64,000 nucleotides of DNA. Source: Microbacterium terricola. Its GTDB lineage: Bacteria; Actinomycetota; Actinomycetes; Actinomycetales; Microbacteriaceae. Position 1 is the stretch's first letter. Every line of letters starts with the position of its first letter. Under the pieces are notes generated by a model. It was not told where the DNA came from. It worked only from the letters and a program-made list of their open reading frames with translations, and ran no database searches. Below are positions 4,105 to 63,487 of this stretch, one piece after another. The stretch is taken from positions 1,488,001 to 1,552,000 of the forward strand of contig NZ_AP027141.1 in assembly GCF_027943945.1 (NCBI RefSeq), in the 5' to 3' direction. The translations under genes were made by a program, and so were the position numbers.

Positions 4105-4110
4105 ACTCCC

Positions 4111-4116
4111 AGGCTA
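4111..4116 (-). promoter_or_regulatory. -10 box TAGCCT of pabB
   Basis: TAGCCT ends 6 nt before the pabB ATG. The spacer (GGGAGT) also looks like a Shine-Dalgarno sequence but touches the start codon, so leaderless initiation is more likely. Confidence 0.5.
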
Positions 4117-4134
4117 CGGGCCGCCCGCTCCCCC

Positions 4135-4140
4135 TAGGCT
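4135..4140 (+). promoter_or_regulatory. -10 box TAGGCT of the DedA gene
   Basis: TAGGCT ends 6 nt before the GTG at 4147. It is 18 bp from the opposite-facing pabB -10 box, so two polymerases could not occupy both sites at once. Confidence 0.55.
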
Positions 4141-4146
4141 CATGGC

Positions 4147-58069: not shown

Positions 58070-59733
58070 CCACAACCACCACCCACTCCGCCGATCTGCT
58101 CGTGATCGGATGGGGCCTGGCCGGTCTCGTCGCCGCAGGAGAAGCGGCAGCACTCGGCAAGAAGGTGGTGATCGTCGACCAGGAGCCCCGCACCAATCTG
58201 GGCGGTCAGGCCTGGTGGTCGTTCGGAGGGCTCTTCTTCATCGACTCTCCCGAGCAGCGCCGGCTGGGGATCAAGGACTCCCTCGATCTGGCGCGGCAGG
58301 ACTGGTTCGGCAGCGCCGGGTTCGACCGTGAAGAGGATGCGTGGCCGCGCCGCTGGGCGGAGGCCTACCTGCAGTTCGCGCACACCGAGAAGCGGTCGTG
58401 GCTGCGCGAGCGCGGCGTCGGATTCTTCCCGATCGTGGGCTGGGCCGAGCGGGGCGGATACACCGCCATCGGGCCGGGCAACTCCGTGCCGCGCTTCCAC
58501 GTGACGTGGGGCACCGGTCCGGGCGTCGTCGCGCCGTTCCAGGCGGCACTCGAGATCGCCGAGGCCGAGGGCAGGGTCACGATCCTGCCCCGCCACCGCG
58601 TGACCGCGCTCACGATGGTCGACGGGACGGTCACCGGCGCGGCCGGTGACGTGCTGGCGCCCTCCGGCGCGGTGCGCGGCGTCGCCACCTCCCGCGAGGT
58701 GGTCGGCGACTTCGAGGTCACCGCCGCCGCGACCGTCGTCTCCTCCGGCGGCATCGGCGGCAACCACACGATGGTCCGCCGGCAGTGGCCGGCTCGCCTC
58801 GGAGCTGCACCGGAGTCGATGATCACCGGCGTCCCGGCCTACGTCGACGGCTCCATGTATCCGGTCGCGGAGGCCGCCGGCGCCCGCTTCATCAATGGCG
58901 ACCGCATGTGGCACTACGTCGAGGGCATCCAGAACTGGGACCCGGTCTGGCCTCAGCACGGCATCCGCATCCTTCCGGGTCCCTCGTCGGTGTGGCTCGA
59001 CGCGACCGGCAAGCGTCTGCCCGTGCCGCTCTTCCCCGGGTACGACACGCTCGGCACGCTCGCCCACCTGCGGGAGACCGGCTACGACCACTCCTGGTTC
59101 GTGCTCTCCCAGAAGATCATCGAGAAGGAGTTCACGCTCTCGGGCAGCGAGCAGAACCCCGACCTGACCGGCAAGGACATGCAGCTGCTGATCAAGTCGC
59201 GCCTGGGCAAGGGCGCGTCCGGCCCGGTGCAGGCGTTCATGGACAACGGCGTCGACTTCGTCGTCCGCGACAATCTCGACGACCTCATCGCCGGCATGCG
59301 TGCACTCCCGGGCGGCGACGCCCTCGACGGCGAACTGGTGCGGCTCGAGGTCGAGGCCCGCGACCGCGAGGTGGACAACGATTTCACGAAGGACGCTCAG
59401 ATCGCCATGCTGCGCTCCGCGCGGGCATTCCGGGGAGACAAGCTCATCCGCACGGCGACGCCGCATCGCATTCTCGACCCGAAGTCGGGACCGCTCATCG
59501 CCGTCAAGCTGCATGTTGTCACGCGCAAGTCGCTCGGCGGCATCGAGACCGATCTCGACGGCCGGGTGGTCGTCGACGGGGTCGAGCCGATCCCCGGCCT
59601 CTACGCGGCAGGCGAGGCGAGCGGCTTCGGCGGCGGCGGCGTGCACGGATACCGAGCGCTCGAGGGCACGTTCCTCGGAGGGTGCCTGTTCTCCGGGCGG
59701 ACCGCCGGGCGCTCGGCCGCGCGCGCGATCTAG
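58066..59733 (+). CDS. FAD-binding dehydrogenase (KsdD/fumarate reductase-like flavoprotein)
   Basis: A 555-residue flavoprotein with the N-terminal FAD motif LVIGWGLAGLVAAGEAAALG (about residues 12-31), GGQAWWSFGG, and the C-terminal GLYAAGEASGFGGGGVHG. This is the FAD_binding_2 group that includes 3-ketosteroid dehydrogenases and fumarate reductases. The substrate is unknown. It is translation-coupled to glbO, so it may supply or use electrons near the globin, as inference. Confidence 0.9.
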   Translation: MTTTTTHSADLLVIGWGLAGLVAAGEAAALGKKVVIVDQEPRTNLGGQAWWSFGGLFFIDSPEQRRLGIKDSLDLARQDWFGSAGFDREEDAWPRRWAEAYLQFAHTEKRSWLRERGVGFFPIVGWAERGGYTAIGPGNSVPRFHVTWGTGPGVVAPFQAALEIAEAEGRVTILPRHRVTALTMVDGTVTGAAGDVLAPSGAVRGVATSREVVGDFEVTAAATVVSSGGIGGNHTMVRRQWPARLGAAPESMITGVPAYVDGSMYPVAEAAGARFINGDRMWHYVEGIQNWDPVWPQHGIRILPGPSSVWLDATGKRLPVPLFPGYDTLGTLAHLRETGYDHSWFVLSQKIIEKEFTLSGSEQNPDLTGKDMQLLIKSRLGKGASGPVQAFMDNGVDFVVRDNLDDLIAGMRALPGGDALDGELVRLEVEARDREVDNDFTKDAQIAMLRSARAFRGDKLIRTATPHRILDPKSGPLIAVKLHVVTRKSLGGIETDLDGRVVVDGVEPIPGLYAAGEASGFGGGGVHGYRALEGTFLGGCLFSGRTAGRSAARAI

Positions 59734-60404
59734 CCGGACGCGCCGGTCGCCCGCACGGCCGTCAGACCCACCCGCTGCGGTCCGCGGACGAGGACGTGGC
59801 CACGCGCCAGCGTGAGCCGCGTCCAGGCGCCCGAGGTCAGCACGCGCGCGTCCTCCTCGCCCGCGATGAAGCCCATCGTGAAGGCGGCGAACGCCGCGCC
59901 GAGCGGAAGCCCGTGGAGCTGCTCGTCGACCGCACCCCAGACATCCGCACGGATCACGCGAACCACGTCCTCGCCCGGATCGGCCGGCATGGCCTCGGCG
60001 ACCATGGCGATGCCGAACTGGGCGCGCGCGGCGAGCAGCGACGCGGGCAGGGCGGCGCCCTGCGCCCACCCGCCCCGCGGCGGCGAGACGCCCGCCCACG
60101 CGGGCGACTGAGCGGTCTCCGGCAGCACGAGCGCAGCGGCGTCGTCGTCGGCGGGGGCCAGTGCGGATGCGTCGACCACGAGGTCGCAGACGAGCTCCGG
60201 GTCGACGTGCACCGCCCGCAGCGCGAGGACGGTGGGCGTGCTGTCGAACAGTCCGCGCGGGGCGAGCGGCGCCGCGGTCATCGCGAGCGTGCCGTGCTCT
60301 GCGCGGAGCCGCACCGCTCCGTCCCCGACGGTGCGGGCACGGCCGGCGAAGGTGAGGGCATCGGCGGCGGCTGCGGCATCGACGAAGATCAGGCGCTGAG
60401 ACAT
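59730..60404 (-). CDS. Conserved-type protein of unknown function, bidirectional-promoter partner of tesB
   Basis: A 224-residue protein (MSQRLIFVDAAAAADALTFAGRARTV...) of alternating beta and helix character with no known motif, signal or membrane helix. It contains LPLGAAFAAFTMGFIAGEEDARV and a C-terminal WTRLTLARGHVLVRGP stretch. It stops 4 bp inside the end of the flavoprotein gene (converging overlap). The ATG at 60404 is 18 bp from the tesB GTG and shares its -10 element. Coding bias matches the rest of the window. Confidence 0.75.
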   Translation of the reverse strand: MSQRLIFVDAAAAADALTFAGRARTVGDGAVRLRAEHGTLAMTAAPLAPRGLFDSTPTVLALRAVHVDPELVCDLVVDASALAPADDDAAALVLPETAQSPAWAGVSPPRGGWAQGAALPASLLAARAQFGIAMVAEAMPADPGEDVVRVIRADVWGAVDEQLHGLPLGAAFAAFTMGFIAGEEDARVLTSGAWTRLTLARGHVLVRGPQRVGLTAVRATGASG

Positions 60405-60410
60405 CCGCCC

Positions 60411-60417
60411 TAAACTA
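60411..60417. promoter_or_regulatory. Symmetric bidirectional -10 element TAAACTA
   Basis: TAAACT (60411-60416) ends 6 nt before the tesB GTG on the plus strand. On the minus strand TAGTTT (60417-60412) ends 7 nt before the ATG of the unknown gene. Both start codons lie within 18 bp, so the one element appears to drive two leaderless genes. Confidence 0.75.
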
Positions 60418-60422
60418 CCAAG

Positions 60423-61313
60423 GTGCACCCGTCACCCGAGCCAGAGGCCGACCCCGTCGCCGCACTACTGCAGGTCCTCGATCTCGCCGGCTCGGACGCG
60501 CGGACGACCGAGGACATCTTCACCGGCCGCTCGCAGGCGATGCCGCTGGGGCGCGTCTTCGGCGGGCAAGTGCTCGCGCAGGCGATCGTGGCCGCGGGCC
60601 GGACGACCCCGGAAGGACGCGCCGCGCACTCGATGCACGGCTACTTCCTGCGCCCGGGCGACTCGGCGATGGGCATCACCTTCGCCGTGGATCGCATCCA
60701 TGACGGACGCTCGTTCTCGACCCGGCGCACGCAGGCGTTCCAGGACGGCGTGCCGATCTTCTCGATGATCGCGTCGTTCCAGGACGAGGATCCGGGGCTC
60801 GAGCACCATGAGCCCCTTCCCGATGGGATCCCCGCGCCCGAGGACCTGCCCGACTTCGAGCAGAACCTCACGGGTCTGCATCCCGTCTCCAAGCGCCTGT
60901 TCACCGATCGGCCAGCCGACCTGCGGCATGTGCCGTCGCCGATCTATCTCACCGTCGACGGCGATCGGCAGCCGCGCCAGGCGGTCTGGATGCGGATGCG
61001 ACGACCGCTGCCCGATGACCCTGAGGTCCACCGCGCGACGCTCGCGTACCTGAGCGACCTCACCATCCAGGAGTCGATCCTGCGCGCGCACGGGATCGCC
61101 TGGACGACTCCCGGTCTGAAGGTCGCGAGCCTCGATCACGCCATGTGGTGGCATCGGCCCGCTCGTGTCGAGGACTGGATCCTGTACGTGCAGGAGTCCC
61201 CCAGTGCGCGGGGCGGCCGAGGTCTGGCGACCGGGCGCATCTACACGCGCGACGGCCAGCTGCTGGCCAGCGTCGCGCAGGAGATCATGGTCCGCATCCC
61301 CGACGCGGACTGA
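60423..61313 (+). CDS. tesB: Acyl-CoA thioesterase II
   Basis: A 296-residue double-hotdog thioesterase. The first hotdog ends near FSMIASFQDE, and the second has the LASLDHAMWWH-like KVASLDHAMWWH motif at about 236-247, with Asp, Thr and Gln catalytic residues in the TesB pattern (GGQVLAQAIVAA near residue 48, DLTIQESILRAHG). It hydrolyses acyl-CoA to free fatty acid and CoA. It starts with GTG and has no leader. Confidence 0.95.
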   Translation: MHPSPEPEADPVAALLQVLDLAGSDARTTEDIFTGRSQAMPLGRVFGGQVLAQAIVAAGRTTPEGRAAHSMHGYFLRPGDSAMGITFAVDRIHDGRSFSTRRTQAFQDGVPIFSMIASFQDEDPGLEHHEPLPDGIPAPEDLPDFEQNLTGLHPVSKRLFTDRPADLRHVPSPIYLTVDGDRQPRQAVWMRMRRPLPDDPEVHRATLAYLSDLTIQESILRAHGIAWTTPGLKVASLDHAMWWHRPARVEDWILYVQESPSARGGRGLATGRIYTRDGQLLASVAQEIMVRIPDAD

Positions 61314-61326
61314 GGCCTCCCGGCCG

Positions 61327-61812
61327 TCAGCGCCGGTGGGCGTAGGCGAGGGGCTCGCCGAGGAACGGCTCCCACACGGCGCGCTCCTCCGGGGTGAGCC
61401 GCAGCGGCCGCCCGGAGGCGGCGTCCACCTTGACGACGACAGTGGTCGCCCTGGCGTACACGTCCTGTGTCCGCCCCTGCGCCGTCTCGAGCGGGCTGCA
61501 CACCTCGTAGCAGACCTCGATGCTCGAGCCGCCGAGGCGGCTGAACCAGATCTGCACGTCGAGGGGATCGCGCTGATACGGCACCGGGGCGAGGTACTCG
61601 ATCTCCTGGCGGGCGATCAGCGTGAGCACCCCGCTGGCGATCCCGGAGTCGAGCACCGCCGTCGGCGGAGCCGTCTCGCCGGGCAGCGGCTTCCAGAAGG
61701 CGCGCACGCGCGCCTCTTCGAGCAGCTTCAGCATCGACGTGTTGTTCACATGGTTGAACGCGTCGAGGTCGCCCCACCGCAGCGGGATCGGGATGTGGAG
61801 ACGCTCAGTCAC
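61327..61812 (-). CDS. Acyl-CoA thioesterase, 4HBT/YbgC-like hotdog protein
   Basis: A 161-residue single-hotdog protein. IPLRWGDLDAFNHVNN near residue 10 carries the Asp expected at the active site of 4HBT-type thioesterases. The GTG start overlaps the ettA stop by 8 nt in another frame, so the gene is expressed with ettA. It converges with tesB, so two thioesterases lie side by side. Confidence 0.92.
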   Translation of the reverse strand: MTERLHIPIPLRWGDLDAFNHVNNTSMLKLLEEARVRAFWKPLPGETAPPTAVLDSGIASGVLTLIARQEIEYLAPVPYQRDPLDVQIWFSRLGGSSIEVCYEVCSPLETAQGRTQDVYARATTVVVKVDAASGRPLRLTPEERAVWEPFLGEPLAYAHRR

Positions 61813-63487
61813 GCGTGAGCTTGCGGTAGGTGGAGCGGTGCGGCTTGGCCGCATCGGCGCCGAGGCGCGAGATCTTGTTCTCCTCGTATGCCTCGAAGTT
61901 GCCCTCGAACCAGTACCACTTGTCCGGCTCCTCTTCGGTGCCCTCATAGGCGAGGATGTGCGTCGCGATCCGGTCGAGGAACCACCGGTCGTGGGTGATG
62001 ACCACCGCACAGCCGGGGAACTCGAGCAGTGCGTTCTCGAGGCTGCCGAGGGTCTCGACATCCAGGTCGTTGGTCGGTTCGTCGAGGAGCAGGAGGTTGC
62101 CGCCCTGCTTGAGCGTGAGGGCGAGGTTCAAGCGGTTGCGCTCTCCACCGGAGAGCACGCCCGCCTTCTTCTGCTGATCGGGCCCCTTGAAGCCGAACTG
62201 CGACACGTACGCGCGCGAGGGGATCTCGACCTTTCCGACCTGGATCCAGTCCAGGCCGTCGGACACGACCTCCCACAGGTTCTTGTTGGGGTCGATGCCG
62301 CCGCGGGTCTGGTCGACGTACGAGATCTCGACGGTCTCGCCGATCTTGACCTCGCCAGCGTCTGCCGGCTCGAGGCCGACGATCGTCTTGAAGAGCGTGG
62401 TCTTGCCCACGCCGTTCGGTCCGATGATGCCGACGATGCCGTTGCGGGGCAGGCTGAACGAGAGCCCGTCGATCAGGACGCGGTCGCCGAAGCCCTTCTT
62501 CAGGTTCTTCGTCTCGAGCACGAGCTGACCGAGGCGCGGCCCCGGCGGGATCTGGATCTCCTCGAAATCGAGCTTCCTGGTGCGCTCGGCCTCCGCTGCC
62601 ATCTCCTCGTACCGGGCGAGGCGCGACTTCGACTTGGTCTGGCGGCCCTTGGCGTTGCTGCGCACCCACTCGAGCTCGGAGGCCAGCCGCTTGGCGAGCT
62701 TCGCGTCTTTCTTGCCCTGGACCTGCAGTCGCTCCTGCTTCTTCTCCAGGTAGGTCGAGTAGTTGCCCTCGTACGGGTAGAGGCGACCGCGGTCGACCTC
62801 GCAGATCCATTCCGCGACGTGGTCGAGGAAGTACCGGTCGTGCGTGACGGCCAGGACGGCGCCGGGGTACTTGGCGAGGTGCTGCTCGAGCCACAGGACG
62901 CTCTCGGCGTCGAGGTGGTTCGTGGGCTCGTCGAGCAGCAGCAGGTCGGGCTTCTGCAGCAGGAGCTTGCACAGCGCGACGCGGCGCTTCTCACCACCGG
63001 AGAGGTTGCCGACGATCGCCTCGGACGGAGGGGTGCGCAGGGCGTCCATCGCCTGCTCGAGCTGGGAGTCGAGGTCCCAGGCGTCAGCGGCGTCGATCTC
63101 CTCCTGGAGCGTCCCCATCTCGGCGAGGAGGGCATCGAAGTCCGCATCGGGGTCGGCCATCAGACCGGAGATCTCGTTGAAGCGGTCGAGCTTCCCCTTG
63201 ATCGGCCCGACGCCCTGCTGCACGTTCTCGAGGACGGTCTTGTCCTCGTCGAGCTCGGGCTCCTGCATCAGGATGCCGACGCTGTAGCCGGGGCTGAGCT
63301 TGGCCTCACCGTTGGAGGGCTGGTCGAGTCCGGCCATGATCTTCAGGATCGTCGACTTGCCCGCCCCGTTGGGGCCGACCACGCCGATCTTCGCGCCGGG
63401 GAGGAACGCCATCGTGACATCGTCGAGGATGACCTTGTCGCCGACCGCCTTGCGGGCGCGGACCATCTGGTAGATATATTCGGCCAT
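61805..63487 (-). CDS. ettA: Energy-dependent translational throttle protein EttA (ABC-F)
   Basis: A 560-residue ABC-F protein with two ATPase domains. Walker A is GPNGAGKS then GPNGVGKT, the signatures are LSGGEKRR and LSGGERNR, and Walker B is LLLDEPTNHLD and LLLDEPTNDLD. EttA binds the ribosomal E site and gates the first elongation steps by ADP/ATP ratio. The linker and PtIM region are near residues 245-320. No membrane domain is present. Upstream lie TAGGCT (about 40 nt ahead) and AGAGGAG. Confidence 0.95.
   Translation of the reverse strand: MAEYIYQMVRARKAVGDKVILDDVTMAFLPGAKIGVVGPNGAGKSTILKIMAGLDQPSNGEAKLSPGYSVGILMQEPELDEDKTVLENVQQGVGPIKGKLDRFNEISGLMADPDADFDALLAEMGTLQEEIDAADAWDLDSQLEQAMDALRTPPSEAIVGNLSGGEKRRVALCKLLLQKPDLLLLDEPTNHLDAESVLWLEQHLAKYPGAVLAVTHDRYFLDHVAEWICEVDRGRLYPYEGNYSTYLEKKQERLQVQGKKDAKLAKRLASELEWVRSNAKGRQTKSKSRLARYEEMAAEAERTRKLDFEEIQIPPGPRLGQLVLETKNLKKGFGDRVLIDGLSFSLPRNGIVGIIGPNGVGKTTLFKTIVGLEPADAGEVKIGETVEISYVDQTRGGIDPNKNLWEVVSDGLDWIQVGKVEIPSRAYVSQFGFKGPDQQKKAGVLSGGERNRLNLALTLKQGGNLLLLDEPTNDLDVETLGSLENALLEFPGCAVVITHDRWFLDRIATHILAYEGTEEEPDKWYWFEGNFEAYEENKISRLGADAAKPHRSTYRKLTRD

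Follow-up and report, generated by a model that had tools for sequence, protein, structure and literature searches.

The DNA analyzed here is a 64,000-nucleotide stretch of the Microbacterium terricola genome (the window; contig NZ_AP027141.1), in which an uncharacterized gene on the minus strand and tesB, a gene for a TesB-like acyl-CoA thioesterase on the plus strand, diverge from start codons separated by 18 bp (60405 to 60422 in the letters of the window; Table 1). Along the plus strand, the junction reads CAT (60402 to 60404), CCGCCC, TAAACTA, CCAAG, and GTG (60423 to 60425). The heptamer TAAACTA occurs once in the window, where 0.02 occurrences were expected. The product of the uncharacterized gene had no Pfam or NCBIfam match, and 14 members of its family gave one match at chance level (0.11); its homologues carry the precomputed annotations PF26035 and PF26572, and its predicted fold may resemble that of DNA sliding clamps. 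The tesB product passed the cutoffs for Pfam thioesterase domains but scored 248.4 bits against TIGR00189 (TesB acyl-CoA thioesterase II), below the curated cutoff of 292.85, and is therefore labeled only TesB-like. Beyond tesB lie a further minus-strand open reading frame (ORF) that ends at 61327 and, at 61805 to 63487 on the minus strand, a gene for an ABC-F-like ATPase with two ABC domains and an ABC_tran_Xtn linker.

An in-frame stop codon of tesB (TAA, 60411 to 60413) lies within the heptamer, so GTG60423 is the sole possible start upstream of the conserved domain. On the minus strand, the longest ORF begins at GTG60428 and crosses the heptamer; if translation began there, the box would lie within the coding sequence and the two genes would overlap. 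The length of this frame speaks for such a start, but homologues begin at the ATG, with M1 invariant in 14 of 14 aligned sequences (whose starts are themselves predictions), and the distance from box to start varies from 6 to 11 nt in relatives, which would break the frame. We regard initiation at GTG60428 as very improbable and retain the ATG at 60404.

Table 1. Features of the divergent junction, in window coordinates
Feature	Position	Strand	Remark
Uncharacterized gene, 224 aa, ATG start	59730-60404	-	
TesB-like acyl-CoA thioesterase gene (tesB), 296 aa, GTG start	60423-61313	+	Pfam thioesterase domains above cutoff
TAAACTA, predicted symmetric -10 box common to both genes	60411-60417	both	Overlapping -10s in relatives
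T at predicted -12 for tesB, required by the plus reading alone	60411	+	Non-T in 14/17 relatives with their own leaderless tesB -10
T at predicted -12 for the minus gene, required by the minus reading alone	60417	-	A on the plus strand
Extended -10 of the minus gene, TGG before TAGTTT	60418-60420	-	
Remaining spacer, minus -10 to ATG	60405-60410	-	Predicted minus transcription start at 60404 or 60405, from the -10 spacing
Spacer of 6 nt, TAAACT to the tesB GTG	60417-60422	+	Predicted tesB transcription start at 60423

The heptamer can be read as a -10 element in either direction. The plus hexamer TAAACT (60411 to 60416) ends 6 nt before the tesB GTG, and the minus hexamer TAGTTT (60417 to 60412) ends 7 nt before the ATG of the divergent gene. 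Both genes have the leaderless layout, with TANNNT so close to the start codon that a Shine-Dalgarno site cannot fit, and none is visible on either side of the gap. The original prediction had described an 18-bp gap, two hexamers 6 to 7 nt from the starts, and no room for Shine-Dalgarno sites, and the letters confirmed this anatomy. The -10s on opposite strands overlap in such a way that positions -7 and -11 can coincide reciprocally, and the layout predicts divergent transcription starts 18 or 19 bp apart. An extended -10 accompanies the minus reading and is lacking from the plus reading. No -35 element was recognizable about 17 bp upstream on either side, where ATCAGG (60388 to 60393) and, on the minus strand, CTCGGG (60440 to 60435) are found. 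Since only the minus side has an extended -10 and neither side has a -35-like hexamer, the minus direction is expected to be the stronger one, and the plus direction, to judge from the same letters, could be weak.

Leaderless genes of Actinobacteria, which make up 19% of genes on average, are described as having TANNNT without a conserved -35, with transcription starting at the start codon (PMC3160421, PMC3898074). Such sites were counted in 464 kb of the M. terricola genome, composed of the window and 20 stretches of 20 kb, in which a simple codon-position rule called 352 genes (a crude caller, with alternative starts counted). TANNNT lay 6 or 7 nt before the start of 73 of the 352 called genes; 6 nt was the commonest spacing (57 sites), 7 nt accounted for 16 sites, and the background was about 3.4 per distance. 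Both hexamers of TAAACTA thus stand at the leaderless spacing of their own genome, and this was counted in favor of a two-way promoter. The base that follows the hexamer was G or C at 65 of the 73 sites, T at 6, and A at 2, and both A cases were the two directions of the TAAACTA site itself. As A followed none of the 71 other hexamers, none of them has the TANNNTA symmetry; the site shares the layout of actinobacterial leaderless genes and differs in this symmetry, which makes TANNNTA unlike a one-way leaderless promoter in the 464-kb sample. For the same reason, both outer bases of TAAACTA look as though they had been retained for the opposite reading. The single TGN extended -10 among the 73 sites was again the minus side of TAAACTA, and the commonest hexamer of the sample was TAGGCT (13 of 73).

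A strict pattern for the whole junction (CAY-N5-7-TANNNTA-N4-6-RTG) occurs at two places in the M. terricola genome. At the second place (L227), no minus-strand ORF of at least 120 aa starts, and there are two successive plus-strand ORFs; the TAAACTA locus is the only divergent case. A pattern with wider spacing gave 3 forward and 5 reverse matches in the same genome, versus 16 and 17 for the pattern read backwards, a rough control in that reversal alters the motif too, and in none of the 38 genomes examined did the wider pattern exceed this control on either strand. With counts no higher than the rough control and one divergent case in the genome, a general genome-wide class of such pairs was rejected.

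Other short divergent gaps of this genome are built differently from the TAAACTA junction. A 42-bp gap in the window (4105 to 4146, with starts taken from the longest ORFs) seemingly contains two separate one-way boxes, each 6 nt ahead of its start codon, TAGCCT for the minus gene and TAGGCT for the plus gene; divergent pairs with two leaderless genes seem ordinarily to be built in this way. Three short gaps elsewhere in the genome (L237, 2692 to 2716; L243, 16828 to 16843; L246, 3888 to 3900) lack TANNNTA symmetry, and their plus genes have leaderless boxes at 6 nt (TAGTCT, TAGCCT, and TAGGCT, respectively).

The junction was compared with its counterparts in relatives. Among the first 217 loci that had the minus gene, 216 had a divergent tesB nearby; a start up to 1.5 kb away was accepted, which was loose enough to admit two loci of other families with gaps of 567 and 678 bp. 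Nine loci of this first round lacked a minus-gene match, and four of these were from other families. In the set enlarged with 80 stretches from other genera, 286 of 303 loci have the pair. Dropped from the 303 were 9 loci without a minus-gene match, 8 without a tesB match in the stretch, and 18 identical over 120 bp; L025, L027, and L030, which belong to other families, had been excluded beforehand, as had 22 loci (L227 to L248) from the M. terricola genome itself or from pattern matches. The final set comprised 268 distinct Microbacteriaceae loci, of which L212 has no minus -10 by our rule, leaving 267. Sampling was uneven: 80 named loci are the best 80 of more than 588 matches, 109 of 295 genus genomes were read through loci (some of the other 186 may belong to species that the named loci already represent), and of 117 family genomes that gave a match, 110 were read, as 30 loci and 80 stretches.

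A minus -10 was located 6 to 11 nt before the minus start in 267 of the 268 distinct loci, with a spacer of 6 to 8 nt in 192 and of 9 to 11 nt in 75. An overlapping plus -10 was kept in 244 of these 267 loci, as TANNNTA in 236, as an 8-bp form in 7, and as a 9-bp form in 1; the commonest cores were TAAACTA (168), TAAGCTA (37), and TAGACTA (25). Judged by this comparison, the box is an old shared element, widespread among Microbacteriaceae. The loci fell into several classes with respect to tesB. In 193 of 267, tesB is preceded by a Shine-Dalgarno-like leader that follows the box (leadered loci), in 181 of the 193 at 20 to 80 nt from the box. The rule used to recognize such leaders was loose, firing in 197 of 2,661 control windows inside tesB (7%); a GGAG, AGGA, or GAGG core was present in 180 of the 193. 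In 45 of 267 loci (compact loci), tesB is leaderless and starts 6 to 8 nt past the shared hexamer, and 28 of the 45 also have a minus spacer of 6 to 8 nt, as in the window. A further 17 have their own TANNNT 5 to 8 nt before the tesB start, and 12 fit no class. These labels came from simple rules that were revised for spacer range, choice of box, and start search, and a few are doubtful by eye: L061 was classed as compact though the similar L065 is leadered, and among the 12 that fit no class, L224, L265, and L286 look compact. L164 contains the palindrome TAAGCTTA, and one version of the rules had scored it as asymmetric.

The conservation of individual bases bears on whether the box serves tesB at all. 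It might serve the minus gene only, as an extended -10 (TGNTAGTTT) whose look as a plus -10 is incidental, with tesB transcribed from further upstream or by read-through. Consistent with this possibility, the minus extended -10 is conserved, with CA at the equivalents of 60419 to 60420 in 136 of 193 leadered relatives (and in 4 of 45 compact ones); M. tuberculosis promoters with TGN are reported to be the stronger ones (PMC3898074); and neither a -35-like hexamer nor a TG is present for the plus direction. However, the base required by the plus reading alone (60411 equivalent) is also conserved, being T in 179 of 193 leadered loci. Leaderless boxes of the genome sample avoid A at the corresponding place (0 of 71), the 60411 equivalent is replaced chiefly in loci with a separate tesB -10, and a read-through tesB message would here have no visible Shine-Dalgarno site. 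A promoter that faces only the minus gene is therefore improbable. Under the preferred reading as a two-way -10, the AT-rich core of the box looks as if it were a compromise between two readings: in plus-strand letters, 168 of 244 symmetric loci have AAACTA as the minus hexamer, and 8 of 23 asymmetric ones have AGCCTA, which on the minus strand is TAGGCT, the hexamer seen most often at leaderless sites of the genome sample.

The block might instead be an operator for a regulator of both genes, its resemblance to a promoter being secondary, and CTAAACTANCAA is indeed partly symmetric and conserved across much of the family. Yet most of its conserved positions have a promoter reading, in the two -10s and the minus TGN, and its first base tracks the presence of a separate tesB -10. 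Moreover, no half-site of equal conservation was found outside the block in the 26 tabulated columns, and the core varies (TAAACTA, TAAGCTA, TAGACTA) as the TANNNTA rule permits. On this evidence an operator is highly unlikely to be what has been conserved, and we return to the shared -10.

If the outer base is kept for tesB, loci in which tesB has acquired a separate promoter form a natural single-base experiment. Symmetry was lost in 14 of the 17 loci with their own leaderless tesB -10 and in 9 of the 250 others (Fisher P = 6.6e-15, a value that overstates the association because the loci are related by descent). In pairs controlled for kinship, most often 5 agreed and 0 went against the association, with a median P of 0.0625 (range, 0.0625 to 0.375), which is not significant; the median in the first tree (192 rows) was 0.125 and became 0.0625 after the addition of 80 stretches from other genera. 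The minus side mirrors this result: A after the plus hexamer, the base required by the minus reading alone, followed none of the 17 one-way tesB boxes (14 have G, 2 have T, and 1 has C). There were exceptions of both kinds. Symmetry was retained despite an own tesB -10 in L090, L108, and L318, while L326 and L328 have CAAACTA, with the tesB start a few bases downstream and no visible substitute for the plus -10. Among the 9 asymmetric loci for which the rule gave no separate leaderless tesB -10, some (L021, L298, and L301) have, by eye, a plausible leadered TANNNT. Taken with the 244 symmetric loci, the restriction of loss mainly to loci in which tesB has its own -10 supports by comparison the original prediction that one symmetric -10 serves both genes.

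The gap of L090 contains two successive units of TANNNT plus start codon, TAAGTTAGCCGGATGACCGCC and TAGACTGGTCGGATGACCGCT, which resemble a duplicated leaderless tesB start.

The history of the tesB leader differs from that of the box. On a FastTree tree of both proteins, which came with long-branch warnings, the compact state requires 29 changes, of which at least 13 are forced by well-supported branches. The window and its nearest sampled relative, L111, are sisters (support, 100), and both are compact; the next nearest (L125, L114, L115, and L005) have the same CCGCCCTAAACTACCAAG, then a leader. With a compact sister and leadered neighbors that share the box, leaderlessness on both sides looks recent in this genome, and it recurs elsewhere in the tree. 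Because tesB is leadered in 193 of 267 loci and yet 184 of those 193 keep the symmetry, the comparison indicates that tesB leaderlessness is a derived, local state, unlike the shared box. The expectation that both genes are leaderless thus agrees with the layout in M. terricola and fails as a conserved feature of the locus. The comparison of the gap in relatives, which had been suggested as a check, likewise gave a divided answer: the symmetry is conserved, whereas the gap is often long, with tesB leadered and both genes remaining.

Promoters of related design are known. Bidirectional promoters of E. coli and Salmonella described by Warman, Grainger, and colleagues read one shared -10 in both directions, with starts most often 18 bp apart and, at that distance, reciprocally coincident -7 and -11 positions (PMC12825309, PMC10268837); divergent starts mapped 7 to 25 bp apart were taken as the mark of this class. 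The present box is like them in that, with a plus start at 60423, T60416 would stand at -7 and A60412 at -11, and a minus start at 60405 would exchange the two positions. It is unlike them in that both products are predicted to be leaderless, the starts are predicted from the layout, and conservation and loss of the box can be followed across the family. In the csoR-cueA divergon of Bradyrhizobium liaoningense, the -10s partly overlap, the csoR start was mapped to the first base of its ATG, and cueA transcription starts 42 nt before its ATG (PMC5057107). That layout resembles most relatives of the present locus and differs from the locus itself in having one leaderless side, a CsoR operator over the -10s, and experimentally mapped starts. 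The adjacent divergent genes prpD and Rv1129c of M. tuberculosis are both mapped as leaderless (PMC3898074); the source passage does not state the distance between them or whether a -10 is shared. The lysG/lysE region of the same organism is reported to combine overlapping promoters and a leaderless second promoter within one 108-bp region (PMC5648196).

In the open-licence literature searched, we found no description of a shared -10 from which both mRNAs are leaderless and no paper that combines Microbacterium, leaderless genes, and transcription start sites. Nothing decisive came from three further papers: PMC5333194, on overlapping divergent promoters of EcoRV; PMC10937400; and PMC12340547, where no mention of divergent promoters was found. 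The cases found, then, are bidirectional promoters, overlapping -10s with one leaderless side, and a divergent pair with two leaderless genes; the combination of both properties on one -10 was not among them. In this sense the arrangement may be called extreme, as the original prediction had it, with the qualification that each property has precedents separately.

We consider it likely that TAAACTA is a bidirectional -10 for the housekeeping sigma factor and that both messages are leaderless. RNA polymerase would load on TAAACTA in either orientation. Loading in the plus orientation would begin tesB transcription at or beside G60423, and loading in the minus orientation would begin the uncharacterized gene at A60404 or at 60405, the latter lying exactly 18 bp from 60423. 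Each message would then be translated by initiation on its 5'-terminal start codon. From the sequence we infer that transcription starts there, that initiation occurs in both orientations, and that translation of either mRNA proceeds without a leader. By geometry, polymerase could not bind both ways at once, and the mutual exclusion per initiation event that had been predicted is expected sterically. It may matter little: as reported for five bidirectional promoters of E. coli, polymerases competed little at basal activity, weakening one direction hardly affected the other, and interference appeared once one direction was activated (PMC12825309).

Bidirectional -10s are reported to be common in transcript maps, and the authors suggest that evolution removes some of them over time (PMC12825309, PMC10268837). 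For the present family we offer a tentative account, which falls somewhat short of being probable. Throughout the family, one 7-bp two-way -10 may hard-wire the output of two unrelated proteins, one clamp-like and the other a thioesterase, and selection would keep it from turning one-way while tesB lacks a separate promoter. Where the tesB leader has been trimmed, repeatedly, the result would be about the smallest possible two-gene promoter, 24 bp including both 5' ends and start codons, with both translations dependent on leaderless initiation. The relatives provide something near a single-base experiment, in that the base needed by one reading is kept while that reading seems to be needed and changes mainly when tesB has its own promoter. 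Selection for bidirectionality thereby becomes testable at one locus over hundreds of species, and the compact form offers a clean setting in which to ask how the ratio of the two products is determined by polymerase orientation and by leaderless translation.
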